Virus record (IMG/VR): IMGVR_UViG_3300023237_000006
Coordinates: 47,926-111,925 of that record
Length of the DNA: 64,000 nt
Strand: one strand, 5' to 3'
DNA from: a virus
The notes under the pieces are model-generated. The model searched no databases. It saw only the letters and a program-made list of their open reading frames with translations, and was not told the origin of the DNA. Below are positions 8,254 through 57,184 of the stretch, piece by piece. Numbering within the stretch: the stretch's first letter is position 1; each line of letters starts with the position of its first letter. The position numbers were made by a program, and so were the translations under genes.

Positions 8254-8261
8254 TATTTATA
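8254..8261 (-). promoter_or_regulatory. Late promoter (TATAAATA)
   Basis: Perfect T4 late consensus on the minus strand; the 5-nt spacer TTAAT leads straight into the ATG at 8248. Confidence 0.8.
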
Positions 8262-8272
8262 GCATATTACGC

Positions 8273-11200
8273 TTAAGAGCAAAGAGATGTGGTAAATAAA
8301 CCAGTACCTTCAATTAAAGTATATCTTAAAGCTTCACTTACCGAACCATCTTTACCTACCCATTCCGCATTTGAGCTTAGAGCCTCATTTAAATTATGAA
8401 AATTAGAGTCTTCCCAGTTCAGTATACCTTCTAATTGCGAGTTCTCTGGAGTAAAGTTAATTGTATATAAATCATATAACTTTTCTATATCCATATATGT
8501 AGCACTCACTGGTAATACTAACGGCCATCCCCAACCAGCGTCAAAACTACTCAACGGAAATGTTTGATTAAGTCTCATTTCACCTGCATATGCACTCAAA
8601 ATATTAGTATTAAGTAATTTATAATTATTACTAAATTTACTCTTCGCAACTATAGGCTCGGAAAATTCTCCTGCAGTTAATAAAGTAGTCTCCATATTGT
8701 CGATCTTTAATTTGAGATTAGTTCCATAAAAGTTATTAGGTATCGGGTAATTTTGTGAATCGAAATTATTAGTATATTGATTTCTACCAGCCCATAAACG
8801 AGATTGTTTAATTGAGAATATATCCATCAATCGTTTTAAATTGGACGGTATAGAAAATCTAAAATTCTCAAAGGACTCTAGATTAAACCCGAGCATACTA
8901 TACATATTATATAGAGAATCTATATTACATAAGTCCACATCAGAATTATTACTAACAAAATCTGAAATTTTATCATATACTCGCTTACCTAGAGTGTTTG
9001 GGGATGAGCTTAAATTACCTACTATAGACCCTATTAACTCATCAAACATTACCGTATCGTCAAACAAGGCCTCTTGATATCTTAAACTCTTATAGTGTTC
9101 TGTACTATCGAAGGATTCTGATTTTTTCTCTACTTGATACTTATTAGAATTATATATATTAAAGTTTGAGCTCATACCAGTCGCTACAGCAGACATACTG
9201 AATGTAGTTGTAGCATATTTTAATGCCCACCTCATCCCGGTCCAGTCACCTCTTGCCTCAATTAAAGAATTACTACTTACAGTAGCTATTGTAGTGTTGC
9301 CAGTTTCAACGTAAGATCCTGAAGCAACCCCAGTTATAGATTTTGTTGAGTTATTTACAAATACTATATCCCCAGTACCAACTGTACCTACTCCAGTTAT
9401 ATCACTTGAAGAGTTGGTGGTAGTAATAGTTGATATATTTTTTAATTCAACTCCAGATAAATTTAGGATACCATAATCATTAACATTTATATTAAAGATA
9501 GCATGATCGTCTGTATCAATAGTAATATGGCTCGATCTCCCAGATATAGAATATACTGCAGTTGTTACACCTGAAGCATCGTTATGGTGAAAAATTTTAT
9601 CATTATAACTAGAAAGAGCTTCATAATATGTACTCTCGTCTTGAGCGATTATCCATATATTATTACTCGTATCTATGCAGAGGTCTACTGGAGTATACCC
9701 CCCAGTCAAACTTATAGAGCTCAATGTGTTACCTAAGGTATCGTATTTAACCAATTTAGATGTGAGGGATGTAGAATATGTCATCCATATATTATTATTG
9801 ATATCAGTATCAATCGGCCCCGCACTATAATTATCTAGACTAACTACAGCTAGTAGATTATTATCATTATCAATCTTTATAGCGCTAGAGCTGTTATAAA
9901 ATGATCCCCAGATATCTTTATTACCATCTATAGCAATATTTGACCCACTATTGCCCGCTGCTACGGTTAGACCGAAAGAGGATAAATGTGTTGTAGATAG
10001 CGGGGTCGAGAACGCATCATATTTCTGCAAAATTCCAGACTTCAAAGCTGCCCAGGCTGAATAATAGGAACCTGTATGTGTATTATCTTCTGGGAATAGG
10101 CTATGTGGTATATATGTGCTATTGTAATTTGGGGTGTCATATACATAACTAGCTACTGGAATAGTTTCCTTTACAATAATACTATCAGACCCGAATTGAG
10201 TCTTTAGTGCAAAACTTATATTTAAAGATTTATTAATATCGCCACATCCTACGATTCCAAGCATTGGGACGGTATCGGAGTAGTTATATGTTTCATTAAC
10301 TATAGTATCTGCAGATAGGTATAAATCATTCAACGTGAAATTACTATCGGATGATAAATAACTATTTGAAAAGTGCATATACCCCTTCCAGTAGCCCCCT
10401 GCACTCGATAGATTATCTGTGTACGTGCTTATAATAGATGGCTGCGCAGATGTAGGTATAGCAACACCTGCCCCAGATACAACATTAATTTTTATTTGAT
10501 ATGGTTGTGTAATATTACCTACTGCGGTTAAAGTGGGTAAATAATTGGAGGCATATTTACTTGCATCCTTTAATCTTATAACAAAAGGTATACGTGTATC
10601 AGTGTATTGAATATTAGATAATTTAAATGTATCTATATTATCTTCAATACCATCAATACCGTTTTGAGAAAATGTTAAGGTATTAACACTCAAATGAGGG
10701 GTTATAGTTAGATTAAAGCTGGCTGCAGCCGTATTTAGCGTTGGTAGCTCAGATCTATTATATATATTCTTGTAATAGTTATTTTCATAAGATACTCTAT
10801 CATCGAATTTAGATGTATCAAATCTTATAAGACCTAATATAGCAGATCTATCTTTCAACCATTTATTATCGGTTGTTATTTTATCGGAGCTAATATATAC
10901 TCTTTCTGTACTATATGTTCCTGCAACTTCCGCGTCTGTATCACACTTACGACATCTTACAATATTATCCCCAGATACTTTTGCATATATTATATCTTTA
11001 GGGTGTGTTGTAATGCTATCGATTACTTTATATTCAGCTGTAGAGGTAATAGTATTAAAACATCTACTATAAAATTTGACACTAGGTATTAGGTGAGCAT
11101 ATTTGTTGGAGTAATACTGATCATGTGTTAAAAAATCCCCTCCTGACGCATATAAATTAACAGTAATGCCTGAACCAGATAGCGAATTATAAGTTTGCCA

Positions 11201-11596
11201 GTTATTATATATTTGAAGGTCTATGCCCTCGTCGTGACCTGTAGAGCCAGCTGGTTGTATAAAAGATGATTTTGAGCTAAGAGAAATTGTGTTTGTTACA
11301 AAGTCGCTTATTTTGAGGCTTTTTGTAAATGAGCTAGTATGCGCATCACCGCCTGTATTGTATACATATAATGTAACTTTGTATATTCCTGAAAAATTAT
11401 AACTATGAGTTGCACATAAGCTTTGAGAGGTAGTACCATCTCCAAAATCCCACAATACCTGACCTGTATTTGAATTAGGGTTTATCTGAGGTATAAATGT
11501 AAATGGGCATATATCTAGAGCATAGCTAGAGAGTGAGAAATTCCCAGTGAAATCTCTTATATTAAAAAATGTGTAGTCTGTCTGAGGGTGCTCCAT
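8273..11596 (-). CDS. Virion protein with N-terminal PKD domain and propeller-like middle
   Basis: The product is 1107 residues. Residues about 20-110 form a PKD/Ig-like domain (VLWDFGDGTTSQS followed by the strand IYKVTLYVYNTGG). The middle, about 560-760, has repeats such as IDTDINNNIWMTYS and CIDTSNNIWIIAQD typical of propeller blades. The C-terminal 250 residues are mixed helix and may be the virion-docking part. PKD domains in phage tails commonly mediate surface contact, so a receptor-binding or fibre-like role is inferred. It starts 4 nt before the end of gp6 in the same strand order. Confidence 0.8.
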   Translation of the reverse strand: MEHPQTDYTFFNIRDFTGNFSLSSYALDICPFTFIPQINPNSNTGQVLWDFGDGTTSQSLCATHSYNFSGIYKVTLYVYNTGGDAHTSSFTKSLKISDFVTNTISLSSKSSFIQPAGSTGHDEGIDLQIYNNWQTYNSLSGSGITVNLYASGGDFLTHDQYYSNKYAHLIPSVKFYSRCFNTITSTAEYKVIDSITTHPKDIIYAKVSGDNIVRCRKCDTDAEVAGTYSTERVYISSDKITTDNKWLKDRSAILGLIRFDTSKFDDRVSYENNYYKNIYNRSELPTLNTAAASFNLTITPHLSVNTLTFSQNGIDGIEDNIDTFKLSNIQYTDTRIPFVIRLKDASKYASNYLPTLTAVGNITQPYQIKINVVSGAGVAIPTSAQPSIISTYTDNLSSAGGYWKGYMHFSNSYLSSDSNFTLNDLYLSADTIVNETYNYSDTVPMLGIVGCGDINKSLNISFALKTQFGSDSIIVKETIPVASYVYDTPNYNSTYIPHSLFPEDNTHTGSYYSAWAALKSGILQKYDAFSTPLSTTHLSSFGLTVAAGNSGSNIAIDGNKDIWGSFYNSSSAIKIDNDNNLLAVVSLDNYSAGPIDTDINNNIWMTYSTSLTSKLVKYDTLGNTLSSISLTGGYTPVDLCIDTSNNIWIIAQDESTYYEALSSYNDKIFHHNDASGVTTAVYSISGRSSHITIDTDDHAIFNINVNDYGILNLSGVELKNISTITTTNSSSDITGVGTVGTGDIVFVNNSTKSITGVASGSYVETGNTTIATVSSNSLIEARGDWTGMRWALKYATTTFSMSAVATGMSSNFNIYNSNKYQVEKKSESFDSTEHYKSLRYQEALFDDTVMFDELIGSIVGNLSSSPNTLGKRVYDKISDFVSNNSDVDLCNIDSLYNMYSMLGFNLESFENFRFSIPSNLKRLMDIFSIKQSRLWAGRNQYTNNFDSQNYPIPNNFYGTNLKLKIDNMETTLLTAGEFSEPIVAKSKFSNNYKLLNTNILSAYAGEMRLNQTFPLSSFDAGWGWPLVLPVSATYMDIEKLYDLYTINFTPENSQLEGILNWEDSNFHNLNEALSSNAEWVGKDGSVSEALRYTLIEGTGLFTTSLCS

Positions 11597-11599
11597 GTA

Positions 11600-13455: not shown

Positions 13456-13941
13456 TTAGTTATTTAATACAGCGAACCCTTCGTAGTTGAGTAACCCCGA
13501 TAATAATAATTCACTTCCAGCTAAAAAGGGTACGCGAATGAATAAATTTACTATATATGCTTCGTCTTCTATACGCGAAATCACCTCTGGGGGTTTTATA
13601 AATTCAATACGAGGTTCTTGTTCTATTAGACCTGACCTTATTCTCTCTACAATAGTTACCCTAACACTTTCGGATATTGGCTCAAATAGTACATCTCTTA
13701 AATCAATGCCGAATAGCGGATTTAATATCTTCTCCCCTGGAGAGGTAGTCATTATATTAATTATTGAATTTCTGATAGCCCCTAAATCATAGTCAATTTG
13801 AATATCTTTTCTCTCATTATCCGCATATACCTCATCTCTGGATGTAAAGGTGGCAGCAATATCTAGATGTAAGTCGGAGTACGAAAAATCTCTTGTATAT
13901 TCACGAGCTTTCGGCAACGACGTTATTTTAACGTTTCCCAT
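13456..13941 (-). CDS. 25: Baseplate wedge protein gp25
   Basis: 161 residues with the gp25/GPW signature: NSIINIMTTSPGEKILNPLFGIDLRDVLFEP and, near the C-terminus, NLFIRVPFLAGS. gp25 is the lysozyme-fold-like wedge protein that helps trigger sheath contraction. I chose the ATG at 13941 (MGNVKITSLPK) because a late box ends 5 nt upstream. A longer frame to 14166 would run across the divergent gene and its promoter. It is adjacent to gp6, as in T4-like wedge clusters. Confidence 0.9.
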   Translation of the reverse strand: MGNVKITSLPKAREYTRDFSYSDLHLDIAATFTSRDEVYADNERKDIQIDYDLGAIRNSIINIMTTSPGEKILNPLFGIDLRDVLFEPISESVRVTIVERIRSGLIEQEPRIEFIKPPEVISRIEDEAYIVNLFIRVPFLAGSELLLSGLLNYEGFAVLNN

Positions 13942-13946
13942 GAAAA

Positions 13947-13954
13947 TATTTAAG
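13947..13954 (-). promoter_or_regulatory. Late promoter (CTTAAATA)
   Basis: Minus-strand late box with a 5-nt spacer to the gp25 ATG; it faces a divergent late box 8 nt away. Confidence 0.75.
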
Positions 13955-13961: not shown

Positions 13962-13969
13962 AATAAATA
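13962..13969 (+). promoter_or_regulatory. Late promoter (AATAAATA)
   Basis: Plus-strand late box, 3 nt before the ATG at 13973 and 6 nt before the second ATG at 13976. Confidence 0.65.
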
Positions 13970-13972
13970 ACA

Positions 13973-14578
13973 ATGATGAAGAACGACCAAAAATTTATAA
14001 AACTTTGTGAAGCTGCGCTCACCCGCTTAGATCGGGCGGGATTTCTCGTTGGAGACGTTGTCGAGATCTCAGATCTATCAAAAGTTTCAGAGAAAATTAG
14101 ATCCGGCCTAAAAGAATATGTTGATTTAGGTTTAAATCTTAGAGTTATTGATATAGTCAATAACACACCATCTGATAAGCCTGGCAGTCAACTTAATAAC
14201 ACCGGCGATGTTACTATATTTCTAGGTGTAGATTATGGAGGTGGTAGAATTATCGGTAGATTCCCAGTACCTCCAGAGAGTTGTACTCCAATTGAATTTT
14301 ATCCTAATCTCGCTCCAATTCCAGATGCACTTCGTCGTGATAATGCAATTACAATTAAACCAGAGGTTGTCCCTGGTTATGAAGGTGAGGAATTTAAAAA
14401 GCAAACCGGTACTGCAAATGACGGTAATGGTAAGCTAAAGCCGGTAGAGGCTTCCAATCCAGTAAAAGATACAAAAATACCAAGCCCTACACCCCCTAAG
14501 CAAGCTGTATACTTTAGAGAGTCTAAAGAGCGGGATGTAGAATGCTTGGCAGATGCATATATAGCTATGCAAAAATAG
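13973..14578 (+). CDS. Conserved-looking hypothetical phage protein
   Basis: 201 residues beginning MMKNDQKFIKLCEAA. An N-terminal helical part is followed by a beta-rich core (TIFLGVDYGGGRIIGRFPVPP) and a proline-rich linker, then a short C-terminal helix ending DVECLADAYIAMQK. No known domain is recognised. It is driven by a late box, divergent from gp25, and its last 14 nt overlap the convergent clamp-loader gene. The second ATG (13976) fits the promoter spacing better. Late timing suggests a morphogenesis role, but that is inference. Confidence 0.75.
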   Translation: MMKNDQKFIKLCEAALTRLDRAGFLVGDVVEISDLSKVSEKIRSGLKEYVDLGLNLRVIDIVNNTPSDKPGSQLNNTGDVTIFLGVDYGGGRIIGRFPVPPESCTPIEFYPNLAPIPDALRRDNAITIKPEVVPGYEGEEFKKQTGTANDGNGKLKPVEASNPVKDTKIPSPTPPKQAVYFRESKERDVECLADAYIAMQK

Positions 14579-15506
14579 CCCTGTTTAGTTGTATGGTGCA
14601 AGCTGTAAAGTTAATTTCTTGATCGACAACAAAAGCAGCTCTATATAAATGTTCAGATATAGATAATATGCAGTCCTGCTTTTTATCTGCCGTTATATCT
14701 GTCTTTTTAAATATTATATCTAACAATGTTTTAAGAAGCGTTTGATAGTCGTTTTGAAAATCTATCCCATGCTGAATAACATATGTTCTTAAGGCAAGAG
14801 GGTCGTCTAATTTACTATAAACCTTCTCAGCCACATGGTCTATAGTCTCTGACTTATTTATATTAAGTTTTCCTGATGAACTAAATTTCTGTAGTAGATT
14901 TATAGTTTTTCTTATATCTGGATAGATGCCTCTAACTAATTCTACAAATTTTAAATGATCTTCCTTTTCTACCGTTATATCTTCAGATTTTAATATAGAC
15001 ATACACCTCGTTACTATACCTGCAACTGGAGGAGATAAATCTATTTCTTGTACTCTACTCTGCAACGGAGCAATAATACGGTGCTTAAAATTAGCAGTTA
15101 AAATGAATTTTGTATACTCTGAGTATTCCTCCATTACATTCCGCAAAGCTCTCTGAGAATCAGGAGTGATACCGTCTGCTTCATCTAGTATAATCACCTT
15201 AATATTACCATCGATGCTCTTAGTACGAGCGAAGCCTATAATTTTGTTTCTAACAGTATCTATACCGCTCTCATCACTTGCATTTATATATAAATGCTGA
15301 CATTTCAAAATATCATTAACAATTACTTTAGCTACAGTAGTTTTACCTATCCCCGGAGGCCCCTGGAGTAGTAGATGGCTCATATTACCATCAATCGCTA
15401 TTTTATCTAGGACTTCTCGCGACGAATCGCTAAGAATAATTTCTTCTAATATTTTAGGCCGATATTTTTCAGCCCAAATATTTTTTATACCACCACTATT
15501 TTCCAT
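14565..15506 (-). CDS. 44: Clamp-loader ATPase, gp44/RFC small-subunit type
   Basis: 313 residues, close to T4 gp44 (319). It has an AAA+ Walker A GPPGIGKTT (49-57), Walker B ILDEAD (106-111), a sensor/arginine-finger region ANFKHRIIAPLQSR, and a C-terminal clamp-loader collar. gp44 with gp62 loads the sliding clamp on primed DNA; in T4 the loaded clamp also activates late transcription, which fits the late boxes here. gp62 and the clamp are not in the window. A late-type box (GGTAAATA) precedes the ATG by 6 nt inside the end of the dUTPase gene. Confidence 0.93.
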   Translation of the reverse strand: MENSGGIKNIWAEKYRPKILEEIILSDSSREVLDKIAIDGNMSHLLLQGPPGIGKTTVAKVIVNDILKCQHLYINASDESGIDTVRNKIIGFARTKSIDGNIKVIILDEADGITPDSQRALRNVMEEYSEYTKFILTANFKHRIIAPLQSRVQEIDLSPPVAGIVTRCMSILKSEDITVEKEDHLKFVELVRGIYPDIRKTINLLQKFSSSGKLNINKSETIDHVAEKVYSKLDDPLALRTYVIQHGIDFQNDYQTLLKTLLDIIFKKTDITADKKQDCILSISEHLYRAAFVVDQEINFTACTIQLNRAIFA

Positions 15507-15511
15507 ATTTT

Positions 15512-16051
15512 TTATTTACCTGTTGATCCAAACCCACCGTCACCACGATCGGAGACACTATCGCTAATACTAAAGGCACTAAAGGACATATTAGCATCAA
15601 TCAGTGGGTATACTACTATTTGAGCAATTCTATCCCCGATACTAACATTATAATCTACATCAGTAAAATTGTATAACTTTACTGCGAGATCTCCCCTATA
15701 TCCATTATCGATTATACCAAAATGTGGAGATATGCCATGTTTAAACCCTAAACCTGAGCGACCTTCAATTCTGAACCAGTACCCTGGTTGTATATATGCA
15801 ACTGTTAATCCTACATCAACAATCGCCGAGCCTACCTTATAATGCTTATTAATGTCTGTATACTTACTAAGTGGAACTTCCTCAATAGTTGATGCTCCCT
15901 GTGATCCTGCTGGTATAGTAGTATTAACAACAGATACCAGATCATATCCAGAGTCGCCGGTACCCGAATTACCCTCTTTATCAATACCTATATGACTCCT
16001 AATAGGTATTTCCGCCCTATCGTGTGTTTTCGTAAAAAATATATTAATCAT
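15512..16051 (-). CDS. dut: dUTPase (dUTP diphosphatase)
   Basis: 179 residues with all five trimeric dUTPase motifs: GDSGYDL (32-38), EGRSGLG (96-102), IDNGYRGDL (114-122), IGDRIAQ (138-144) and the C-terminal P-loop-like DRGDGGFGSTG (168-178). The enzyme hydrolyses dUTP to dUMP and pyrophosphate, keeping uracil out of phage DNA and feeding dTMP synthesis. The insert at 42-75 is longer than in minimal dUTPases. It sits 5 nt upstream of the clamp-loader gene in the same direction, which suggests a small replication operon. Confidence 0.95.
   Translation of the reverse strand: MINIFFTKTHDRAEIPIRSHIGIDKEGNSGTGDSGYDLVSVVNTTIPAGSQGASTIEEVPLSKYTDINKHYKVGSAIVDVGLTVAYIQPGYWFRIEGRSGLGFKHGISPHFGIIDNGYRGDLAVKLYNFTDVDYNVSIGDRIAQIVVYPLIDANMSFSAFSISDSVSDRGDGGFGSTGK
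15513..15520 (-). promoter_or_regulatory. Late-type promoter box (GGTAAATA)
   Basis: Minus-strand box within the 3' end of the dUTPase gene, 6 nt before the clamp-loader ATG. Confidence 0.5.
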
Positions 16052-16096: not shown

Positions 16097-16104
16097 ATTA
16101 AATA
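16097..16104 (+). promoter_or_regulatory. Late promoter (ATTAAATA)
   Basis: Plus-strand late box with the 5-nt spacer ATTTT to the GTG start at 16110; it decides that start. Confidence 0.7.
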
Positions 16105-16109
16105 ATTTT

Positions 16110-16580
16110 GTGAATGATGATAATACAGTAAAAGATTTACTAGCCCAGCTGCAAAGTGATCCCCCTAGGGATAGAGCCGAGGGTACAGATATAGATTTAG
16201 CTAGGGAAAATATTGAAGATTTTTTACTAGCAAATATAGGTAAATTGGTTCAGGGTGGCGTTGAATCCGTTCAGAATATGATTGACTTTACAGCATCAGC
16301 TCCCGATGCAGATAGTAGTGAATCTCTAGCATCGCTTATAAGGGCATCAGCCTCATCAATTGATATATTGCAAAAGATTATGATTTCTCGAGAGAAAAAT
16401 ATAAATTCCCGCGAAATAGCACAAATGAAGATAGACAGCTCATCAAAAAATATGGATAAAGAAATAACTGCGAAGCTGTTACTTAGCCGTGAGGAGGTTT
16501 TACGTCAACTTATATCTAAATCACGAGATCTTATTACTGAAGATGTGGTAGAAGCTGAAGTAGAGGAACTAAGTGATTAG
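16110..16580 (+). CDS. 16: Probable terminase small subunit, gp16-like
   Basis: 156 residues, acidic at both ends and strongly helical in the middle: a long helix around NIEDFLLANIGKLVQGGVES, then SLASLIRASASSIDILQKIMISREK. This two-helix pattern and the length match T4 gp16 and its marine relatives, which form a ring that recognises DNA and regulates gp17. GTG start set by the late box. It converges on, and overlaps by 12 nt, the gene on the opposite strand. The large terminase is 18 kb away at 34.4 kb. The assignment rests on helix pattern and size only. Confidence 0.5.
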   Translation: MNDDNTVKDLLAQLQSDPPRDRAEGTDIDLARENIEDFLLANIGKLVQGGVESVQNMIDFTASAPDADSSESLASLIRASASSIDILQKIMISREKNINSREIAQMKIDSSSKNMDKEITAKLLLSREEVLRQLISKSRDLITEDVVEAEVEELSD

Positions 16581-19624: not shown

Positions 19625-20556
19625 TTTTGTGCCTCTATTAAAAAGTTTCCAGATTCTTCTGTTAGTGATTTCACTTCGATAGTTATTTGATAAGCCTCTG
19701 GTATGATATCACCTCCAATCATTCTTCGTGTGCCTGCCATCTCAACTTTAAAGGAAGATATAAACCCATATTTTATAAATCTAATACCCGGTATTAGAGC
19801 TTCATAAAAATGGGGAGGGTCTAGTTGCGTTTTTGATTTACGACTAGGTGAAGTATTTCTGGCAAGTGTATTTATAAATTCTTTATTTTTTTGTATACTC
19901 CCTGATTCCTGAGTATTGAGAAGAGGAAATGTTAAAGATATAGGCTCTTCAGATAGAGCGGATGGCTGGTAAAATCTGGTCCTCTCGACGAATACCCCAG
20001 GTTCCAGCAACCCACTAAATCCGTAATTGCTTCCAGCCATATGCTGATTAACAAACTTAGCCCCCGCCGCAGCAAAGTCCGCGATTAAATTGTTACTATC
20101 GCCGCCGAATGTAGTTGCCCAGCTATTAGTCCTCGATCTTACTGAGTTCTCAAAATAAGGTAACTTAAAGGTATTGCCAGATTCTAATAGATTATACATC
20201 CCCCCGTAAGGCTCTAAATGTGGAGAGCTCTCACTATTACCACCAGTTGCTAGTTCACCTGCAATACACTCATCCACAAAATCGCAGACTGTACCGCCTA
20301 GATTTTCTAATGTAGATGTAATAAAGTGAGCAAAGCCTTGTGTAACTTGACTAGTAGATACTTTATACTCCTTCAACTCTATATATGGTGGATCTTTCGG
20401 CTTATTTAAGGACCAATCATACCCATTAACTATATCGAAGCTGCTCCCCCCATTACCTCCAGTATTTCCACTAGGGGTTGTATTTTGATTTGAAGATGAT
20501 GATCTACCAGCTGAGCTGCTCGGAGCTCCAGGATTTGTAGTAGTAACATTTGCCAT
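19621..20556 (-). CDS. Baseplate tube-cap/initiator protein (gp48/gp54 family), copy 1
   Basis: 311 residues with a Gly/Ser/Asn-rich N-terminal 45 residues, then a folded part ending in YEALIPGIRFIKYGFISSF and TRRMIGGDIIPEAYQITIEV. These segments align with the adjacent gene at 20587-21462, so the two are paralogs, as T4 gp48 and gp54 are. They join the baseplate hub to the first tube ring. A late box precedes the ATG by 6 nt. Which copy is gp48 and which gp54 cannot be decided here. Confidence 0.75.
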   Translation of the reverse strand: MANVTTTNPGAPSSSAGRSSSSNQNTTPSGNTGGNGGSSFDIVNGYDWSLNKPKDPPYIELKEYKVSTSQVTQGFAHFITSTLENLGGTVCDFVDECIAGELATGGNSESSPHLEPYGGMYNLLESGNTFKLPYFENSVRSRTNSWATTFGGDSNNLIADFAAAGAKFVNQHMAGSNYGFSGLLEPGVFVERTRFYQPSALSEEPISLTFPLLNTQESGSIQKNKEFINTLARNTSPSRKSKTQLDPPHFYEALIPGIRFIKYGFISSFKVEMAGTRRMIGGDIIPEAYQITIEVKSLTEESGNFLIEAQK

Positions 20557-20562
20557 TAATAA

Positions 20563-20570
20563 TATTTATT
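20563..20570 (-). promoter_or_regulatory. Late promoter (AATAAATA)
   Basis: Minus-strand late box with 6-nt spacer TTATTA to the ATG at 20556. Confidence 0.7.
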
Positions 20571-21462: not shown

Positions 21463-23663
21463 TATGAAATCCCCTTAGATACTCTATCGTTGAAGAACAT
21501 GTCGTTTGTATCTGCTGGATATCCACCACCACCACCTGTCCCACTACTATTCCCACCCCCACCGAACATCATTGGCGCTGTACTACCTGCAGAGTTATTA
21601 ACGGAAGCAATATTTGAAAGACCGGATCTAATATCTTTTAATATCTGTACCTGATTATTCGATGCAGTAATAATATCCTTTCTAAGTTTAGACAACTCTT
21701 TGACTGATGCCCTATTAAGATCAGCGATAACTTTAAAGTCGCCTTCAATATTGAATTTAACTTTATCTACATTTGTTTGTATTTTACTCCCAAAATCTGC
21801 ACCCGCTTCAGCAATATGACCTGCGATAGCAGCGCCTGTCTCTCTAGGTACTGCTATTATTTTAGCTATAATATCTTTTGCGTGGCCTATTGAAGCTTTC
21901 AACATCTTAGGTATGCTAGTTATTAGAGACATAGCTTTACTAGCTATAAAATTAGTAATACTCGACGTCATATTCTTTTGCCAGTTAGCAACTGTAGTTG
22001 AACTATTTACTAAGATATCCTTCCCTAACTTTAATTGGTTAGCAATGAACGTACTTGAATTCTTTATACGGGCAGCTGCATCACTCAATAAATCACTACC
22101 TGAAGCGATTACATTGGTAACTTTGGCTTTTACTATAGCATCAAGCCCCTTTAATTTAGATTTAGCATTACTAAATACATCAGCAGATGCAGTTTTTATA
22201 TTATCTATAAATATCCTTATATTTTGACTAACTGTATCAAATATAGCTCTCCCAGGTAACTTAATTTTATCTATAATATTATTTGTATAGTTTTTAATTT
22301 TTTCTCCTGCAGAACTTAGAGGGGAGAAAAAGGCCTTTATTTTTGATATAAACTCATTTGTACCTTGAGTTAACTCAAGACTCTTACCGTTATCGGTTTT
22401 TTCTATGAGACCTAGCCACTCAAGTGGTTTAGCTAGGAAATATGGCAGATTTTTAAGTTTATTACTGATCCAATTTTTTGCACTCATTCCAAAGTCTTTT
22501 ATATTTGAAAAATTTACTGAATCAGTAATTTTAGACATACTAAGAGACGAAATTATACTATAACCCTTACTTACCCCTTCCGCTAAAAGCGGCGCGTATG
22601 GAAAGATACCCTTTATTATATTTTCAAATCCAGATTTTATATCACCTCTATTAAAGGCCTTCCAAGATTCGAACCACCACATCAGAGAGGATATTACAGG
22701 TATATATTTACCATATTTTGATATCTTATCTCCAACCCATCCAGCTAGCTTACTGAACATTGAACCAAATTTTTCTGACTGCTTAACTCGAGCACTTGGG
22801 CTCATTACAGCATATCGCCCTAATAGAGCAATATCTAAAGCAATGCCTAAAGGGCCTGTAATAGCCCCCACCCCTGGGATTAGTGTACCTAAGCTTAGTA
22901 ATCCAGAAGCAATCTCCCCAACACCACCTATAATATCACCCGCTTTTATATTTTTATAGGCAAACCAAAAAGCAACCAACGCCCCTACACCCGGTAAAAA
23001 TCTGATAACTTTAGAAATATGGCCGCCTAATTTACTACCCAATGTTGAAAATATTTTTAAGAATTTACCAGCTTTAGGGAATGCTTTTGTCACCTTATCT
23101 ATAATTCCAAATGTCGCTGTTTTTAATATATTAATTGCACTGGTGACTAATCTACCGAGTCTCTTTTTAATACTCTCTAAGAATATACCCCCGAGCTTTA
23201 CTAAGCCACCACTGAACATTTGCATCAATTTTCCTGCAGCTCCAGGACCAGTAAAAAATGCTGCAATTGCAAGACCTAAACCCCCCAAGACTAATAAAAT
23301 ACCCCCTAAGCCTTTTAGTAAAGACTTAGAACATGCATCATCAGACTTAGGAATATCTACATTAATTACTGACGGTATGTTACGTGTCTTCTTCGCACCA
23401 AAATCTGGATTTTTCTCTTTTGAGAAATTGAACATAGTCCTTGCAAATATTTTGGATATAGTCCCCCAACGGGAGGCCTCATTGGTCGAGAGAGAGGGCC
23501 CTTTCTTCTTTATAGACCGTTCGTTCTTATTGTCAAAATCAGGTGAACGTACATCATCATAATTTGCAGATGATTGATTAGCTGCAGGGAGACCCGCAAC
23601 ATCCTTTAGCTTTTTAACTGCTTCAGCTAAAGCAGCAATTAATTTTGTAACATCTTGGTCCAC
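21462..23663 (-). CDS. 29: Tape-measure protein (gp29-type tail-length determinant)
   Basis: 733 residues, longer than T4 gp29 (590). The N-terminal 110 residues are charged. Then come several hydrophobic/Gly-rich membrane-like segments (LLKGLGGILLVLGGLGLAI near 120-140; IIGGVGEIASGLLSLGTLIPG near 240-260) and a long helical C-terminal half rich in Lys, Ala, Ile and Ser. This is the usual tape-measure pattern: it sets tail length and is ejected. The start is GTG at 23663, with a late box 5 nt upstream. The C-terminal tail is Gly/Ser-rich. Confidence 0.8.
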   Translation of the reverse strand: MDQDVTKLIAALAEAVKKLKDVAGLPAANQSSANYDDVRSPDFDNKNERSIKKKGPSLSTNEASRWGTISKIFARTMFNFSKEKNPDFGAKKTRNIPSVINVDIPKSDDACSKSLLKGLGGILLVLGGLGLAIAAFFTGPGAAGKLMQMFSGGLVKLGGIFLESIKKRLGRLVTSAINILKTATFGIIDKVTKAFPKAGKFLKIFSTLGSKLGGHISKVIRFLPGVGALVAFWFAYKNIKAGDIIGGVGEIASGLLSLGTLIPGVGAITGPLGIALDIALLGRYAVMSPSARVKQSEKFGSMFSKLAGWVGDKISKYGKYIPVISSLMWWFESWKAFNRGDIKSGFENIIKGIFPYAPLLAEGVSKGYSIISSLSMSKITDSVNFSNIKDFGMSAKNWISNKLKNLPYFLAKPLEWLGLIEKTDNGKSLELTQGTNEFISKIKAFFSPLSSAGEKIKNYTNNIIDKIKLPGRAIFDTVSQNIRIFIDNIKTASADVFSNAKSKLKGLDAIVKAKVTNVIASGSDLLSDAAARIKNSSTFIANQLKLGKDILVNSSTTVANWQKNMTSSITNFIASKAMSLITSIPKMLKASIGHAKDIIAKIIAVPRETGAAIAGHIAEAGADFGSKIQTNVDKVKFNIEGDFKVIADLNRASVKELSKLRKDIITASNNQVQILKDIRSGLSNIASVNNSAGSTAPMMFGGGGNSSGTGGGGGYPADTNDMFFNDRVSKGIS

Positions 23664-23668
23664 ATAAT

Positions 23669-23676
23669 TATTTATT
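23669..23676 (-). promoter_or_regulatory. Late promoter (AATAAATA)
   Basis: Minus-strand late box with 5-nt spacer ATTAT to the tape-measure GTG; it overlaps the stop codon of the upstream gene. Confidence 0.65.
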
Positions 23677-25291: not shown

Positions 25292-25863
25292 TAAGATACG
25301 CTATAATTATCATACACCCAGGAAGTACCTATTAGGTCTACTTTTGAAGAATCGTACGTATATGATACACTCTCTACAGCTGTTGGGGATGCATTATAAT
25401 ATTTAAACGTCTTTCGCGGTGATCCATCTCTACCTAAATGCGTTGCAGTTATGGTCTTTTTTAGATCATTTGCATCTGCAATACGACCATAATGAGCTGA
25501 TACTATTACCCACGCTCTAAGAGCTAAGTCTGCAAATGACTCTTCAGTCTCTATGAATTGAATAACTAAAGGTCTACTGTCAGTAGATGATCTGCCAGAG
25601 TTAATTACCCCGGGTAGCAACCCACCGTTGTTTAAAATTGTTGCTTTGCCAGCATTATAGTTATCATTAGCGTGGGTTAATGAAGCTGCTAATAGCTTCA
25701 CACTACCTCCAGGTATATTATCCACATTGCCCCAGGACACACTCTCTAGCTCGCTTACTTCACTCAACCTACCAGGGAGTGTAAACTCCACCTCCCACGA
25801 CGTGTGTAGAGGTATGTTGGTCCTCGGATTGCCGAGATTTTCCAGGAAACTGCGAGTAGACAT
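25291..25863 (-). CDS. Tail-tube-like protein
   Basis: 190 residues. Beta-rich with the features of gp19-type tube folds: an N-terminal helix, a strand-loop TSWEVEFTLPGRLSEV, a strand pair around SRPLVIQFIETEESF, and a C-terminal strand TSWVYDNYSVS. The main tube protein is probably the gene at 33.7 kb next to the sheath, so this may be a tube-initiator or terminator variant. A late box (CATAAATA) precedes the ATG by 5 nt. Confidence 0.6.
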   Translation of the reverse strand: MSTRSFLENLGNPRTNIPLHTSWEVEFTLPGRLSEVSELESVSWGNVDNIPGGSVKLLAASLTHANDNYNAGKATILNNGGLLPGVINSGRSSTDSRPLVIQFIETEESFADLALRAWVIVSAHYGRIADANDLKKTITATHLGRDGSPRKTFKYYNASPTAVESVSYTYDSSKVDLIGTSWVYDNYSVS

Positions 25864-25868
25864 AAATC

Positions 25869-25876
25869 TATTTATG
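25869..25876 (-). promoter_or_regulatory. Late promoter (CATAAATA)
   Basis: Minus-strand late box with 5-nt spacer GATTT to the ATG at 25863. Confidence 0.7.
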
Positions 25877-25891: not shown

Positions 25892-26413
25892 CTACTCACT
25901 AGTGTAATAATGGTATGCAAATGTAGAACTAAAGCTTACAATTTGACCAGTACCTGCCGCCATAGTATAATCTAATGCTCCGGTACTTCTAATTGCTGCA
26001 CCTATTAGCTTATATGTCTTTACAGGGGCAAGGTTCTTATCAACTTGAGCTAATGATATAATAGAATCTGGCCCACCAATATTATAATCGCCGCGACCAT
26101 CATTACCAAAAACTCTCTCTGTTTCTGCTATCATCTTAGAATGAATATCTGAGTTTGCATCACAATAAAAGTCAATTTGATAGGATGCAGAATTTTCATA
26201 TACTGCTCGACCTGCAACATTAAAATCTAGCCCCTGATAAGGCGCAGTAACATTTTCAATCGTCCTATTTGGGATGGAGCCAGATTTTGCATAAACTAAA
26301 TCATCTTCAGAAAGAGAAAACCCAGGAATGTTAATACCGATCACTCGAAATAGAAAGTCACGGGAGAACTCTCTAGCAACTGCCCGCTCGAAAAATGAAG
26401 TTATGTCTTGCAT
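25892..26413 (-). CDS. Tail-tube-like protein
   Basis: 173 residues with a helix at the N-terminus and a beta sandwich: FLFRVIGINIPGFSLSEDD, then IPNRTIENVTAPYQGLDFNVAGR, which resembles the tube protein segment that corresponds to a target loop in gp19-type proteins, and a C-terminal strand VSFSSTFAYHYY. It is probably a paralog of the neighbouring 190-residue protein and of the 33.7 kb tube protein. A late box ends 5 nt before the ATG. Confidence 0.6.
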   Translation of the reverse strand: MQDITSFFERAVAREFSRDFLFRVIGINIPGFSLSEDDLVYAKSGSIPNRTIENVTAPYQGLDFNVAGRAVYENSASYQIDFYCDANSDIHSKMIAETERVFGNDGRGDYNIGGPDSIISLAQVDKNLAPVKTYKLIGAAIRSTGALDYTMAAGTGQIVSFSSTFAYHYYTSE

Positions 26414-26418
26414 ATCTA

Positions 26419-26426
26419 TATTTAGG
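26419..26426 (-). promoter_or_regulatory. Late promoter (CCTAAATA)
   Basis: Minus-strand late box with 5-nt spacer TAGAT to the ATG at 26413. Confidence 0.7.
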
Positions 26427-26475: not shown

Positions 26476-26483
26476 GCTAAATA
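26476..26483 (+). promoter_or_regulatory. Late promoter (GCTAAATA)
   Basis: Plus-strand late-type box with 6-nt spacer to the ATG at 26490. Confidence 0.55.
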
Positions 26484-26489
26484 CCACTT

Positions 26490-26660
26490 ATGCAGACAGA
26501 ACTAATAAAAAAATTGACGGAGTTATCTCAGGAGTGGTTCGATTATGAGCTACCTACTGGTATGGGTGAAGATATGGAGAATACTGAACTAATTGAAGCG
26601 GCAGTATTAAGTTGTGCAGTACAACTCGAAGATATTTTAGAAGAATTTACAGAAGATTAA
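26490..26660 (+). CDS. Small acidic protein (56 aa)
   Basis: A 57-codon frame beginning MQTELIKKLTELSQEW and ending LEDILEEFTED. It is acidic and helical, with no cysteine cluster or membrane segment. A late-type box sits 6 nt before the ATG, the arrangement seen at many genes here, which supports it as real. It is followed by a GGAAC-type promoter for the next gene. Function unknown. Confidence 0.6.
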   Translation: MQTELIKKLTELSQEWFDYELPTGMGEDMENTELIEAAVLSCAVQLEDILEEFTED

Positions 26661-29164: not shown

Positions 29165-29170
29165 ATATTT

Positions 29171-30049: not shown

Positions 30050-30055
30050 CTATAA

Positions 30056-36415: not shown

Positions 36416-36420
36416 AATAA

Positions 36421-36428
36421 TATTTATA
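36421..36428 (-). promoter_or_regulatory. Late promoter (TATAAATA)
   Basis: Perfect late consensus on the minus strand with 5-nt spacer TTATT to the ATG at 36415. With T4 geometry, +1 would be the A of the ATG. Confidence 0.8.
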
Positions 36429-36466: not shown

Positions 36467-36474
36467 ATTAAATA
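36467..36474 (+). promoter_or_regulatory. Late promoter (ATTAAATA)
   Basis: Plus-strand late box with 5-nt spacer TATAC to the ATG at 36480. Confidence 0.75.
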
Positions 36475-36479
36475 TATAC

Positions 36480-37993: not shown

Positions 37994-38001
37994 CATAAAT
38001 A
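37994..38001 (+). promoter_or_regulatory. Late promoter (CATAAATA)
   Basis: Plus-strand late box inside the end of the sulfotransferase gene, 5-nt spacer ATGAT to the GTG at 38007. Confidence 0.65.
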
Positions 38002-38006
38002 ATGAT

Positions 38007-42799: not shown

Positions 42800-42807
42800 T
42801 ATAAATA
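42800..42807 (+). promoter_or_regulatory. Late promoter (TATAAATA)
   Basis: Perfect late consensus with 5-nt spacer ATCAA to the ATG at 42813. Confidence 0.75.
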
Positions 42808-42812
42808 ATCAA

Positions 42813-43046
42813 ATGGAAAACAATACAATATATAATATCAAAAAAAACATTAACAAGCTTAGGTTTTTATTATTATTAACTCTACCTCTATCCCCTTGCA
42901 TAGTAAGCTGCGTTCATAATAATAATACTATGGACGATTGGACAGAAGTTACTCGTCGTGCTGATGTAGAAATGGAGTCTCATAGAAATAGATATAACGG
43001 AGCAGATCCAAATATATATATAGTTGTCCCAGTTCACAGATTTTGA
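42813..43046 (+). CDS. Small lipoprotein, outer-spanin-like
   Basis: 77 residues. A basic N-terminus is followed by the hydrophobic LRFLLLLTLPLSPCIVSC, in which IVSC is a lipobox, so Cys33 would be lipidated and the mature part about 45 residues long and polar. Small late phage lipoproteins of this size are often outer-membrane spanin subunits, and the perfect late promoter fits a lysis role. No matching inner-membrane spanin is obvious next to it. Confidence 0.6.
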   Translation: MENNTIYNIKKNINKLRFLLLLTLPLSPCIVSCVHNNNTMDDWTEVTRRADVEMESHRNRYNGADPNIYIVVPVHRF

Positions 43047-43266: not shown

Positions 43267-43718
43267 GTAATAGAAAAATGAAATCAAGTTTTGCGGACCT
43301 TTCAGCTGCAATAGTTAAAACTTTTTGTGTGGGAGGCGGTTTATATAAATTTCAACTAAATCAAAGCGAAGAACATTTAGCTCAGGTGACTCAAAATCAT
43401 AAAGAGTTGAGAGCAATGTGCCCTCACCCTAGAGACTCAATAATTGTAGAGGCTGACTTATACTCTTGCGCTGATGGGTATGGGGGTAGAAATTACTTTG
43501 ACAGTGGGTTTATTGTATCATGCACCTTATGTGTTAGTAAAATCGGTAAGTTAGGATTTAATATTGCAACCGGTGAGCCGGAGGGCGATGAAGATATTGT
43601 AGAGATTTTCAATATATGTGAAATAGTTGAAGCTGATAACCGCCGACGTCTTCATAAAGATAATGTCCGTCGAGATGATTTGGCAGAGCTTGATAGACTT
43701 AAGCAAAAATATGAATAA
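43263..43718 (+). CDS. Hypothetical protein with Cys/His zinc-like residues (151 aa)
   Basis: 151 residues. AMCPHPRDSIIVEADLYSC followed by GFIVSCTLCVSKIG gives Cys-x-His and CxxC groups that could bind zinc; this pattern of a CPHP turn and a downstream CTLC recurs in small phage proteins of unknown function. The C-terminus is charged and helical. ATGA overlap with the preceding gene. Confidence 0.65.
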   Translation: MSNRKMKSSFADLSAAIVKTFCVGGGLYKFQLNQSEEHLAQVTQNHKELRAMCPHPRDSIIVEADLYSCADGYGGRNYFDSGFIVSCTLCVSKIGKLGFNIATGEPEGDEDIVEIFNICEIVEADNRRRLHKDNVRRDDLAELDRLKQKYE

Positions 43719-43721
43719 ATA
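43714..43721 (+). promoter_or_regulatory. Late promoter (AATAAATA)
   Basis: Late box at the end of the preceding gene with 6-nt spacer TAATAT to the ATG at 43728. Confidence 0.7.
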
Positions 43722-43727
43722 TAATAT

Positions 43728-44951
43728 ATGAATAAGCGAAGTTTTTTATCTATAATGGGCGGATTAACATTCCCTACAATTTTAAATGCGCAATATGGTA
43801 AAGCCGTAAAAGCTAAGAATATAATTTATATATATTTGGACGGGGGTATATCATCTCAAGAGACCTGGAACCCTAAACCGTTTGCGGACGCTGAATTTAG
43901 AGGCCCGTATGAAGCTATTAAGACTAAGACAGACGGTTTATTGTTTTCAGATCGCTTCCCCCTACTTGCGAAAGAGACTGACAAATTTTCTGTGATTAAC
44001 AGCATGACTCATGGTCAGGCCGCGCACGAGAGGGGTACTGAGTACATGTTTACAGGCTATAAGCCCAGCCCCGCCATTAAATATCCATCTGTAGGATCTA
44101 TAGTCTCTCACGAACTCGGATTTAGAAATTCTCTGCCTGCTTATGTTTCAGTCCCAGTAGAGCAAAACGAATTTGCGAGCACGGGTTTTCTCTCAGCTAA
44201 GTTTGGCTCTTTTAGCCTTGGGGCTGACCCAGCTGCAAAAGACTTCAAGGTTAGAGATTTAAAGAATGGAGTATCAAACAGAAAAAGGGATTTACTAGAG
44301 CTCGTGGATTCTAAATTTAAGAGAGAAATAAAATCCGATAATGTAATTGCGATGGATAAATTTTATGATCAAGCATTTGATTTAATGTCTTCTGAGGCAG
44401 CAATGCAGGCATTTGATATATCGAAGGAATCAGAAACGATGAAGGATATGTATGGGAAAACTCAGCCAGGGCAAAGGCTTTTGATTTCTCGACGACTTGT
44501 AGAGGCGGGGGTACGAATTGTTAAGGTAAATTATGGCGGTTGGGACAATCATGACAAGATAAAAAACAGTTTCGATGCGAAGGCACCTGATCTAGATAAA
44601 GCTCTCTCTGCACTCTTCACCGATCTTGCAGCGCGAGGTATTTTAGATGAGACGATGGTAATTGTAACTAGTGAATTTGGCCGTACTCCGAAGATTAATA
44701 AGACGGCAGGTCGCGATCACTGGCCTAGAAACTTTTCTACTATTATCGGCGGCGGTGGTATTAATAATGGGATGGTTTACGGTACTACAGACTCCATATC
44801 TAACGAAGTGGAGGAGAGTCCAGTATCTCCAGAGGATTTATTTGCGACAATGTTTCATCTTGCTGGTATAGATTCAACAAAGGAGTTAATGACTCCAGAT
44901 CTCCGACCGATAAAAATAAGTAAGGGGAACATTATCTCTGAATTAATATAG
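43728..44951 (+). CDS. DUF1501 (sulfatase/alkaline-phosphatase-superfamily) protein
   Basis: 407 residues. N-terminal MNKRSFLSIMGGLTFPTILNA is a signal peptide with a Tat-like KRSFL start. Then DUF1501 hallmarks: IYIYLDGGISSQETWNPKP (34-51), NSMTHGQAAHERGTEYMF, VKVNYGGWDNHDKI, VIVTSEFGRTPKIN and GRDHWPRNFSTIIGGGGI, with metal-binding Asp/His residues as in the alkaline-phosphatase/sulfatase superfamily. The reaction of DUF1501 proteins is not established; exported hydrolase activity on sulfated or phosphorylated polymers is plausible. Late promoter 6 nt upstream. Rare in phages as far as I know; likely acquired from a bacterium. Confidence 0.85.
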   Translation: MNKRSFLSIMGGLTFPTILNAQYGKAVKAKNIIYIYLDGGISSQETWNPKPFADAEFRGPYEAIKTKTDGLLFSDRFPLLAKETDKFSVINSMTHGQAAHERGTEYMFTGYKPSPAIKYPSVGSIVSHELGFRNSLPAYVSVPVEQNEFASTGFLSAKFGSFSLGADPAAKDFKVRDLKNGVSNRKRDLLELVDSKFKREIKSDNVIAMDKFYDQAFDLMSSEAAMQAFDISKESETMKDMYGKTQPGQRLLISRRLVEAGVRIVKVNYGGWDNHDKIKNSFDAKAPDLDKALSALFTDLAARGILDETMVIVTSEFGRTPKINKTAGRDHWPRNFSTIIGGGGINNGMVYGTTDSISNEVEESPVSPEDLFATMFHLAGIDSTKELMTPDLRPIKISKGNIISELI

Positions 44952-46277: not shown

Positions 46278-46293
46278 GGAACCTATTTATAAT
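46278..46293 (+). promoter_or_regulatory. GGAAC-N5-TATAAT promoter
   Basis: GGAAC, CTATT, TATAAT, TATAAT, then ATG at 46300: exactly 6 nt between the -10 hexamer and the start codon. Confidence 0.75.
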
Positions 46294-46299
46294 TATAAT

Positions 46300-46953
46300 A
46301 TGGAAGACCAGATTAATAAAAAATATCAAGTAGCCATTGACGAGCTTAATAGGGCAAAGAAATTCTTTCTCGATAGGTTTTGTGATGATGATAGAGTAAA
46401 AAACGCTAATGTATTTATTACTATTCAGACGAGCGCTCGACGAAATAATCTAGGTCATTTTTGGGCGGAAAAATGGGTGTCAGACTCTTCTGCAGCTGAT
46501 GAGGATAAGGAATATTATCATGAAATAAATATATGCGCTGAGTATATGAACCGTCCAGCTCAGGATATATATGAAACGCTGCTTCATGAGCTTGCGCATC
46601 TATACAATAATATTTTAGAATTGCCGGATTGTAATGACGTTCAGTATCATAATAAAAATTTTAAAAAAGCTGCGGAAATGTTTGGGTTAATTGTAGATCG
46701 ATTCCCAGGTAAGGGATGGGCTCTAACATCCCTGAGCGAAGAAGCACACAGTGCAATAGCCGCACTGGAGCCAAAAGCTGACGCTTTAAACTTTCATAGA
46801 GTATCACAACCTAAAATTCAGCAAGAGTCTAAGTACATTAATATCAGTCTGAAAAAATCTGAATGGGACGATTTCTTCAAAGAAAAGCTTGATGAGCTCG
46901 GGCTCGAGAAGCCGAAAGAATTAATTTTACAACTATTAGAGGAGTTAAATTAA
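46300..46953 (+). CDS. SprT-like zinc metalloprotease domain protein
   Basis: 217 residues. TLLHELAHLYNN contains the HExxH zinc motif (96-100), followed 20 residues on by YHNKNFKKAAEMFGL, the third-ligand His region of SprT/SPRTN-type proteins. Human SPRTN removes DNA-protein crosslinks; bacterial and phage SprT relatives have unproven roles. The C-terminal 50 residues are helical and lack the usual zinc ribbon. Strong GGAAC-type promoter with no leader. Confidence 0.75.
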   Translation: MEDQINKKYQVAIDELNRAKKFFLDRFCDDDRVKNANVFITIQTSARRNNLGHFWAEKWVSDSSAADEDKEYYHEINICAEYMNRPAQDIYETLLHELAHLYNNILELPDCNDVQYHNKNFKKAAEMFGLIVDRFPGKGWALTSLSEEAHSAIAALEPKADALNFHRVSQPKIQQESKYINISLKKSEWDDFFKEKLDELGLEKPKELILQLLEELN

Positions 46954-48905: not shown

Positions 48906-49658
48906 TTATTCTGGTATCTGTTTCAGTTCTGATACTGGGGCATACGTAGCCTTCTCCGACCGATTATAGTAGGAATTTTCTAACCAAAAGGTACTAAAAT
49001 ATACCATACCGCCTTTATTGCTAAGATGTTTTGCAGCTGTATCCGCCGAGATGCCCCGATTTGCAACCAACCATTCTACAACAGGTACAAATTCCGGTTC
49101 CGTACCTGGAGATGAGCTGTCCGTAGCCTCATTATTAACGAGAGATAAAAACCAATCCTTATTAACTTTTTTACCAGGGCATGTTTTATAACTTTTAGGG
49201 TCTTCTCGATGGAACTTAACATCGCTGCTATCTATTGTGGAATTATTACCCATCCATTTAATTAAAGACCTTGCTGTTGCAGCCGCAGTTTCCCAAGACT
49301 CCAGACCTCTACCCGATTCCGGATCTTCAGTATCATAATTACCTAGAACTTCTATACCGATCGACGTAGAGTTAAAGGAGCGGGCGTGGATGCCGCTGGA
49401 TTGGAGAGGCGACATTCCGAAAATTTGATCCTCATCAATAAACAGATGAGGTCCCCTCGACCATCCTAATTTTTTTTGATAGTAATTTTTTATATTTACT
49501 ATGTGCTGAATTGTAAACCCACGCGGCCTAGTCTCGAGATTAGGTGCCCATGTGTGATGCATGGTTACACTTTTACACCAACTCGGAACCTTTATAGTAT
49601 TAAGATACTGATCAAAAGTTTCCGGAGTCCAGACTTTTCCTACGTTTGAGTATGACAT
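48906..49658 (-). CDS. N-acetylmuramoyl-L-alanine amidase (endolysin)
   Basis: 250 residues from the ATG at 49658. Amidase_2/PGRP fold: zinc ligands His34/35 in SVTMHHTWAP, His150 in VKFHREDP and Cys160 in KTCPGKK, with the typical NSTSIGIEVLGNYD strand. It cleaves the amide bond between MurNAc and L-Ala in peptidoglycan. The C-terminal 70 residues (VVEWLVANRGISADTAAKH) look like a wall-binding or helical add-on. No signal peptide, so release needs a holin. The start is fixed by a late box 5 nt upstream; a longer frame to 49778 would run into the tRNA-like locus. Confidence 0.9.
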   Translation of the reverse strand: MSYSNVGKVWTPETFDQYLNTIKVPSWCKSVTMHHTWAPNLETRPRGFTIQHIVNIKNYYQKKLGWSRGPHLFIDEDQIFGMSPLQSSGIHARSFNSTSIGIEVLGNYDTEDPESGRGLESWETAAATARSLIKWMGNNSTIDSSDVKFHREDPKSYKTCPGKKVNKDWFLSLVNNEATDSSSPGTEPEFVPVVEWLVANRGISADTAAKHLSNKGGMVYFSTFWLENSYYNRSEKATYAPVSELKQIPE

Positions 49659-49663
49659 ACTAA

Positions 49664-49671
49664 TATTTAAG
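49664..49671 (-). promoter_or_regulatory. Late promoter (CTTAAATA)
   Basis: Minus-strand late box with 5-nt spacer TTAGT to the amidase ATG. Confidence 0.75.
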
Positions 49672-56909: not shown

Positions 56910-56925
56910 GGAACTTCTGTACAAT
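56910..56925 (+). promoter_or_regulatory. GGAAC-N5-TACAAT promoter
   Basis: GGAAC, TTCTG, TACAAT, AATAGT, ATG at 56932: exactly 6 nt from the -10 hexamer to the start codon. Confidence 0.7.
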
Positions 56926-56931
56926 AATAGT

Positions 56932-57137
56932 ATGAATAAAAAAGTTACTAAAAAACCTAAATTGAAACTTACTGCCGCGGATGGTAATGCATTTGTTATT
57001 TTAGGTATTCGTCGAATACCGCCGCCAAACGAGTAAATTGGTCCGCTGAGCAAATTAAAACTTATAGAGAAGAAGCGGTGAACGGTAGTTATGATGAATT
57101 GCTACAATTGACTATGAAGAATTTTAATGTTTCATAA
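56932..57137 (+). pseudogene. Conserved small phage protein, -1 frameshift
   Basis: The first frame reads MNKKVTKKPKLKLTAADGNAFVILGI, the start of a common phage family ('DGNAF-I/L-G' then a helix), then goes off-frame and stops at 57034. The -1 frame, from 57012, gives SNTAAKRVNWSAEQIKTYRE...QLTMKNFNVS to a TAA at 57135, the expected second half. Adding one base (for example a T after ATT at 57007-57009) restores a protein of about 68 residues. A sequencing error, mutation or shift in translation are all possible. Confidence 0.65.
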
Positions 57138-57176
57138 TATTTACTGAAAACTATATGTGTCCAGATGTCATCATTG

Positions 57177-57184
57177 AATAAATA
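57177..57184 (+). promoter_or_regulatory. Late promoter (AATAAATA)
   Basis: Late box with 5-nt spacer TTGTA to the ATG at 57190. Confidence 0.7.

Follow-up and report, generated by a model that had tools for sequence, protein, structure and literature searches.

Late promoter boxes set 5 nt before start codons suggest leaderless messages in an uncultured clade of T4-like viruses

Late transcription of phage T4, the textbook case with leadered messages, uses the sigma factor gp55, the co-activator gp33 and the sliding clamp gp45 at the late box TATAAATA. This box is 8 bp long with its first base at -13 (PMC2988020) and therefore ends at -6. Here we analyzed a 64,000-nt stretch of viral DNA, hereafter the window, comprising positions 47926 to 111925 of the 111,925-bp IMG/VR virus record IMGVR_UViG_3300023237_000006 (GC content, ~35%), in which TAAATA, the core of the T4-type late box, stands immediately ahead of many start codons. 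We consider it highly probable that in the clade to which this virus belongs promoters are fused to start codons, so that the mRNAs would begin with AUG or GUG and be translated in a leaderless manner.

The middle and late mRNAs of the Thermus phage P23-45 are mostly leaderless. To our knowledge, neither this phage nor phiYS40, also a Thermus phage, is T4-like or has gp55 late promoters. The middle and late mRNAs of phiYS40 are likewise mostly leaderless, accompanied by an increase in IF2 and a decrease in IF3 (PMC3594737), and set a precedent for phages; in Deinococcus-Thermus bacteria themselves leaderless genes are numerous (PMC3160421). In the TA-led leaderless genes of Actinobacteria and Deinococcus-Thermus, the -10 box lies ~12 nt before the start (PMC3160421), a position like that of the TATAAT-N6-ATG arrangement described below, but these genes use a cellular sigma, whereas the clade adds a phage sigma class and a third motif.

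Within the window, 22 open reading frames (ORFs) of at least 55 aa have an ATG or GTG preceded by TAAATA, which ends exactly 5 nt before the start codon in 15 of them and 6 nt before it in 7, versus 1.64 expected for the two bins (mean of bins 10 to 59, 0.82; P for at least 22, ~1e-17). When 15 orderings of the same letters were tested, TAAATA gave 22 such starts, the overlapping frame ATAAAT gave 11, and the others gave 0 to 5. The abundance of TAAATA was ordinary (177 versus 163 expected), the anomaly lying in its placement alone. A preliminary description of this DNA had announced the box ahead of at least 18 genes on both strands, and all 13 sites that it listed hold it; the pattern is real and more extensive than announced. 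Its distance to the start codon is not random in the full record either. When all 4,096 hexamers were scanned without bias at 31 distances from start codons, TAAATA at 5 nt ranked first (18 versus 0.24 expected) and TAAATA at 6 nt ranked third, otherwise outranked only by its own frame-shifted form, ATAAAT. Sites were chosen by this core, through which the 8-bp box is represented, the upstream TA of the T4 box being relaxed in the clade; the full box TATAAATA likewise peaked at 5 nt (160 versus 0.7). The clade resembles T4 in the common box core, the lack of a strong -35 element and the presence of late virion genes on both strands (PMC2988020). In the virus's own record and the related records G001 to G003, TTGA occupied the -35 place, 22 nt before the box, in only 13/197 late boxes (1.6 expected); these may be composite promoters that host sigma reads too.

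The relatives scanned were four long records (G001 to G004) and locus L015. TAAATA at 5 nt was the strongest hexamer-distance signal in the own record and in each of these five, with 18 starts in the own record and 38, 35, 15, 26 and 6 in G001, G002, G003, G004 and L015, respectively, for 0.04 to 0.34 expected. Across 995 kb of loci of the clade defined by TerL, with identical 40-mers removed, 193 distinct starts carried the box at 5 nt (1.25 expected), 39 at 6 nt and 31 at 7 nt. This TerL clade (51 to 73% identity) is monophyletic on the TerL tree with a support of 100/99 and, as far as the rows entered in the tree go, holds no cultured phage; it is an uncultured, large, mostly aquatic T4-like group. 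By contrast, boxes of T4, P-SSM7, P-SSM2, KVP40 and a sister group lay mostly 20 to 30 nt upstream of the start. Late boxes were found 26 to 28 nt before ATG in T4, followed by a Shine-Dalgarno leader, and mostly at 20 to 28 nt in P-SSM7, neither phage having a 5-nt peak. No 5-nt peak was seen in KVP40, XG4, phiM12, PTm5, P-SSM2, RM378 and the single-cell marine virus AG-345-F15, nor in the neighboring clade at 36% identity, and Melnitz showed a weak one (3 versus 0.1). In the Rhodothermus phage RM378 (L102, 1-50000), the top start signal was approximately TTATTTAAAA, ending 4 nt before ATG; this AT-rich motif is possibly a different fused promoter.

A partial counterpart exists in culture. 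HTVC008M, a T4-like Pelagibacter (SAR11) phage (Kyanoviridae), has gp55, gp45 and TAAATA at exactly 5 nt before ~11 GenBank-annotated starts. These starts are 6280, 7562, 11972, 18943, 19456, 31132, 49760, 75559 and 75830 on the plus strand and 16007 and 18916 on the minus strand. These boxes leave no room for a leader and lack a Shine-Dalgarno sequence, whereas its other boxes lie at 18 to 36 nt, most with a GGAG-type Shine-Dalgarno sequence; since the box is found at both distances, it is independent of the start codon in this phage. HTVC008M differs from the clade in being a mixed system, with 44% Shine-Dalgarno and no early fusion, and stands apart on the TerL tree. It makes the late fusion experimentally accessible.

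We then considered whether the box is a late promoter. Like T4, the clade has gp55 and gp45 homologues, which were present in all five records (own and G001 to G004). In the own record, outside the window, a gp55-like late sigma lies at contig 9989-10483 (plus strand; tblastn, 1e-10 with T4 gp55 and 2e-14 with P-SSM7 gp55) and a gp45-like sliding clamp at contig 29475-30206 (plus strand; PHROG processivity factor, 4e-8). The profile phrog_254, tried for the late sigma, gave no match anywhere, and gp55 was recovered by tblastn instead. The poorly conserved gp33 co-activator, part of the T4 system, had no PHROG match among the subset of small proteins scanned. Late boxes were over-represented at unit heads, the genes that come first when the coding strand changes (odds ratios, 3.3 to 7.1; P from 0.011 to 6e-7), and the box was kept in 80/93 orthologues of boxed genes versus 22/216 for unboxed genes, at ~28 to 67% protein identity. 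Furthermore, at about 20 loci a divergent gene pair shares the palindrome CAT-N5-TATTTATAAATA-N5-ATG, 22 bp in total with 5 nt to each start. The two late boxes of TATTTATAAATA share four bases, so that one polymerase at a time should fit.

G001:C1:119369-119396: divergent palindromic promoter; ~19 other loci, e.g., L031 6341 and L079 6300

The boxes of the window are the following.

8246..8259, minus strand: late box TAAATA (8254-8259) 5 nt before ATG, gene 5252-8248 (998 aa); kept in 3/3 orthologues
13939..13952, minus strand: late box 5 nt before ATG, gp25-like baseplate gene 13456-13941 (161 aa; Pfam GPW_gp25)
13964..13978, plus strand: late box 6 nt before ATG 13976, gene 13976-14578; paired divergently with 13947; kept in 4/4 orthologues
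15504..15518, minus strand: TAAATA 6 nt before the clamp loader gp44-like gene 14565-15506; in 0/4 orthologues
16099..16112, plus strand: late box 5 nt before GTG, gene 16110-16580
20554..20568, minus strand: late box 6 nt before ATG, gene 19621-20556
23661..23674, minus strand: late box 5 nt before GTG, tape-measure gene 21462-23663 (PHROG tape measure)
25861..25874, minus strand: late box 5 nt before ATG, tail-tube-like gene 25291-25863
26411..26424, minus strand: late box 5 nt before ATG, tail-tube gene 25892-26413; kept in 11/15 orthologues
26478..26492, plus strand: late box 6 nt before ATG, small gene 26490-26660
29159..29173, plus strand: late box 6 nt before ATG, gene 29171-29854
30044..30058, plus strand: late box 6 nt before ATG, gene 30056-30529
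30550..30563, plus strand: late box 5 nt before ATG, gene 30561-31151
33650..33665, minus strand: late box 7 nt before ATG, tail-sheath gene 31277-33652; box at 5 to 7 nt in 15/15 orthologues
34319..34332, minus strand: late box 5 nt before ATG, tail-tube gene 33713-34321
34344..34363, plus strand: TAAATA 11 nt before ATG, TerL gene 34361-36043; predicted 6-nt leader without Shine-Dalgarno
36413..36426, minus strand: late box 5 nt before ATG, gene 36038-36415; kept in 6/6 orthologues
36469..36482, plus strand: late box 5 nt before ATG, gene 36480-37316; kept in 5/5 orthologues
36775..36788, plus strand: TAAATA 5 nt before the ATG at codon 103, inside gene 36480-37316 and in frame; candidate internal start
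37996..38009, plus strand: late box 5 nt before GTG, gene 38007-38366; kept in 5/5 orthologues
42802..42815, plus strand: late box 5 nt before ATG, gene 42813-43046
43716..43730, plus strand: late box 6 nt before ATG, DUF1501 gene 43728-44951 (Pfam PF07394, 1e-104); kept in the sole orthologue found
49656..49669, minus strand: late box 5 nt before ATG, amidase gene 48906-49658 (Pfam Amidase_2); kept in 6/6 orthologues
57179..57192, plus strand: late box 5 nt before ATG, small ORF 57190-57363

The boxes announced for the tube, gp25, tape-measure, amidase and DUF1501 genes were thus all recovered. Three GTG starts had been predicted from the box alone. Those at 23663 and 38007 are supported, since a boxed GTG recurs in orthologues (2/2 for the former; 5/5 boxed for the latter, with GTG in those shown), while at 16110 the box held in 2/2 orthologues, with ATG in place of GTG. 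Other sites required correction: the spacing is 7 nt at the sheath gene and 11 nt at TerL, the start of which is boxed at 5 to 7 nt in several relatives; the site at 36775 is internal and in frame; and the gp44 box (15513) is possibly due to chance, since none of the four orthologues carries it. The internal box at 36775-36788 could give a shorter late product, in the manner of T4 gene 17.

When a box ends at -6, a gap of 5 nt, the distance found here, makes the first base of the start codon the +1 position. The base at -1 was a pyrimidine in 107/122 (88%) of the 5-nt genes versus 302/506 (60%) of unboxed genes (P = 8e-10), but the base before the start codon was a pyrimidine in just 22/54 of the 6-nt genes. 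As the preference is absent in the latter, the -1 pyrimidine tracks the distance from the box and not the start codon, and the pyrimidine-purine pattern of the 5-nt genes fits a transcription initiator. Shine-Dalgarno cores preceded 6 to 10% of clade starts, versus 6 to 9% in a control stretch, whereas they preceded 57% of starts in T4, 57% in XG4 and 52% in Melnitz; the leadered T4-like arrangement, a box 20 to 30 nt before ATG with a Shine-Dalgarno sequence, was not found in the clade. These data bear on the possibility that the boxes are true late promoters with a +1 slightly upstream, giving leaders of 2 to 8 nt and messages that are not strictly leaderless. Spacing does vary (5, 6 and 7 nt, some 9 and 11 nt), and the +1 that the clade's gp55 would set with the polymerase of its own host is a prediction; nevertheless, the sharp 5-nt peak and a -1 pyrimidine confined to 5-nt genes fit a +1 at the start codon, and leaders of 2 to 8 nt would still be too short for a Shine-Dalgarno site. 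We thus regard short leaders as unlikely.

Fusion had been proposed for late promoters; it found support there, but this scope was too narrow, as promoters of sigma70 type are fused as well. Among unboxed genes, TATAAT ended 6 nt before ATG in 34 cases (0.6 expected), accompanied by GTTGA ~28 to 30 nt before ATG (AGTTGA at 30 nt, 20 versus 0.23). A third motif, AGGAAC at 17 nt (11 versus 0.09), appeared as TAGGAAC 4 to 5 nt before TATAAT. The fused forms are TTGA-N17-TATAAT-N6-ATG and TAGGAAC-N4/5-TATAAT-N6-ATG. The -10 hexamer of sigma70 promoters ends at -7, so that here too a gap of 6 nt brings +1 onto the start codon. Such fusions precede the genes for a DnaB-like helicase, SSB and, in G001, DNA polymerase, and these gene functions suggest early or middle timing. 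In 44 orthologue comparisons of this class, the late box was found in none and the early box was kept in 19, for an unboxed-gene baseline of 80/379. A late or sigma70-type box stood at most strand-switch heads (46/50 in G001, 21/22 in G004, 18/24 in G003, 14/20 in the own record and 26/40 in G002). The window holds two such sites.

46288..46302, plus strand: early/middle-type promoter TTAGGAAC..TATAAT, end 6 nt before ATG, gene 46300-46953
63437..63451, plus strand: TATAAT, end 6 nt before ATG, gene 63449-63691; GGAAC in front

That two unrelated boxes lie at 5 and 6 nt, each matching its own promoter geometry, and are concentrated at unit heads argues against TAAATA at -11 to -6 being a translation-initiation signal, AT-rich and S1- or Kozak-like, of a host without Shine-Dalgarno, with transcripts starting elsewhere. 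The clade's lack of a Shine-Dalgarno signal and its AT-rich starts would suit such a signal, and Bacteroidetes do have AT-rich start signals (PMC3160421). However, in HTVC008M the boxes at 5 nt lack Shine-Dalgarno and those at 18 to 36 nt mostly have it, and a Tenacibaculum phage without Shine-Dalgarno also lacks a TAAATA signal, which makes this explanation very improbable. The TAA of the box also serves as stop codon for the preceding gene in 14/73 boxed genes in G001, 12/60 in G002, 6/33 in G003 and 7/36 in G004, and in only 2/31 in the own record; this overlap lends a little to the idea that short AT-rich intergenic gaps and overlapping stops (TAA-ATA) bring a functionless TAAATA near ATG by compaction, which we nonetheless dismiss almost entirely, because most boxes do not serve as stop codons, other letter orderings give no such peak, TAAATA is not over-abundant, and the spacing and conservation statistics already contradict it.

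The leaderless reading of the late mRNAs, with start sites and mode of translation predicted from sequence, is instead supported by the spacing peak, the gp55 and gp45 homologues, orthologue conservation, the unit heads, the initiator pattern and the lack of Shine-Dalgarno. We propose that host polymerase with its own sigma would read TTGA-N17-TATAAT or TAGGAAC-N4/5-TATAAT ahead of at least part of the replication genes, and that host polymerase with phage gp55 and the gp45 clamp would later read the TAAATA promoters. By box geometry, RNA would start on the first base of ATG or GTG, and ribosomes would take up these AUG- or GUG-first messages by leaderless 70S initiation. All three promoter classes most likely yield leaderless mRNAs. 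It also seems likely, with somewhat less assurance, that the whole temporal program of this widespread lineage (sigma70-type, TAGGAAC-activated and gp55-type) is leaderless, that Shine-Dalgarno initiation has been dropped entirely, and that its promoters, the 22-bp palindromic divergent one included, merge the stop codon with the TATA box and the start codon.

Several observations weigh against strict fusion throughout. GTG, a poor leaderless start in Escherichia coli and an efficient one in some Actinobacteria (PMC9031893), accounts for 14/197 boxed starts, and the predicted leader is 1 to 2 nt in the 6- and 7-nt genes and ~6 nt for TerL. Unboxed genes inside units have neither a promoter nor a Shine-Dalgarno sequence, leaving their initiation unexplained, and 6/20 unit heads of the own record carry neither motif when the distance is applied strictly. 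In addition, the early-class match is loose, with ~1 to 5% of other ATGs matching when one mismatch is allowed, and recognition of TAAATA by gp55 is proposed by homology.

If the proposal is true, a large lytic virus can rely on leaderless initiation by default, and start codons could be predicted exactly in genomes of this type. Late-promoter searches failed in pelagimyophages (PMC7029224), which promoter fusion may, in our view, explain. The fusion is unlike T4, and we found no report of it in a search confined to open-access literature, so that an earlier description may exist elsewhere. As to the host, no relative turned up when GTDB contigs were scanned with TerL. The closest cellular relatives found for the DUF1501 protein (43728-44951), of which G002 has two copies, were from Verrucomicrobiales (52 to 54%). 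Verrucomicrobia were not adopted as the host, there being no excess of TTGA..TATAAT-N6-ATG in the Verrucomicrobia loci and genomes examined.

The virus is a deep T4-like one whose replisome and late sigma resemble those of T4 in type. Its TerL (34361-36043) is of T4 type, with ~31 to 34% identity to cultured cyanophages and similar phages, and the window further encodes a tail sheath, gp25, a gp44-like clamp loader, an amidase, a tape measure and three tail-tube-like paralogues (25291-25863, 25892-26413 and 33713-34321). A nucleotide search against cultured phages gave no match, and a scan with gene 36480 recovered the same virus only. Genes in the own record and in the relatives, which are metagenomic sequences, were called with a simple in-house caller. 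Outside the window, the record encodes, besides the gp45-like clamp and gp55-like sigma, helicases, SSB, UvsX and a piece of DNA polymerase. The polymerase match (own contig 16189-17325) is limited to the C-terminal half (profile 498-845), and a split polymerase is possible, with the ORF upstream of the match (own contig 14600-16141) as its other half; the G001 counterpart is a single gene of 851 aa. Finally, the adjacent boxed genes 30056-30529 and 30561-31151 share their first 15 bases, ATGGACAACGAAACT, and could have arisen by duplication.

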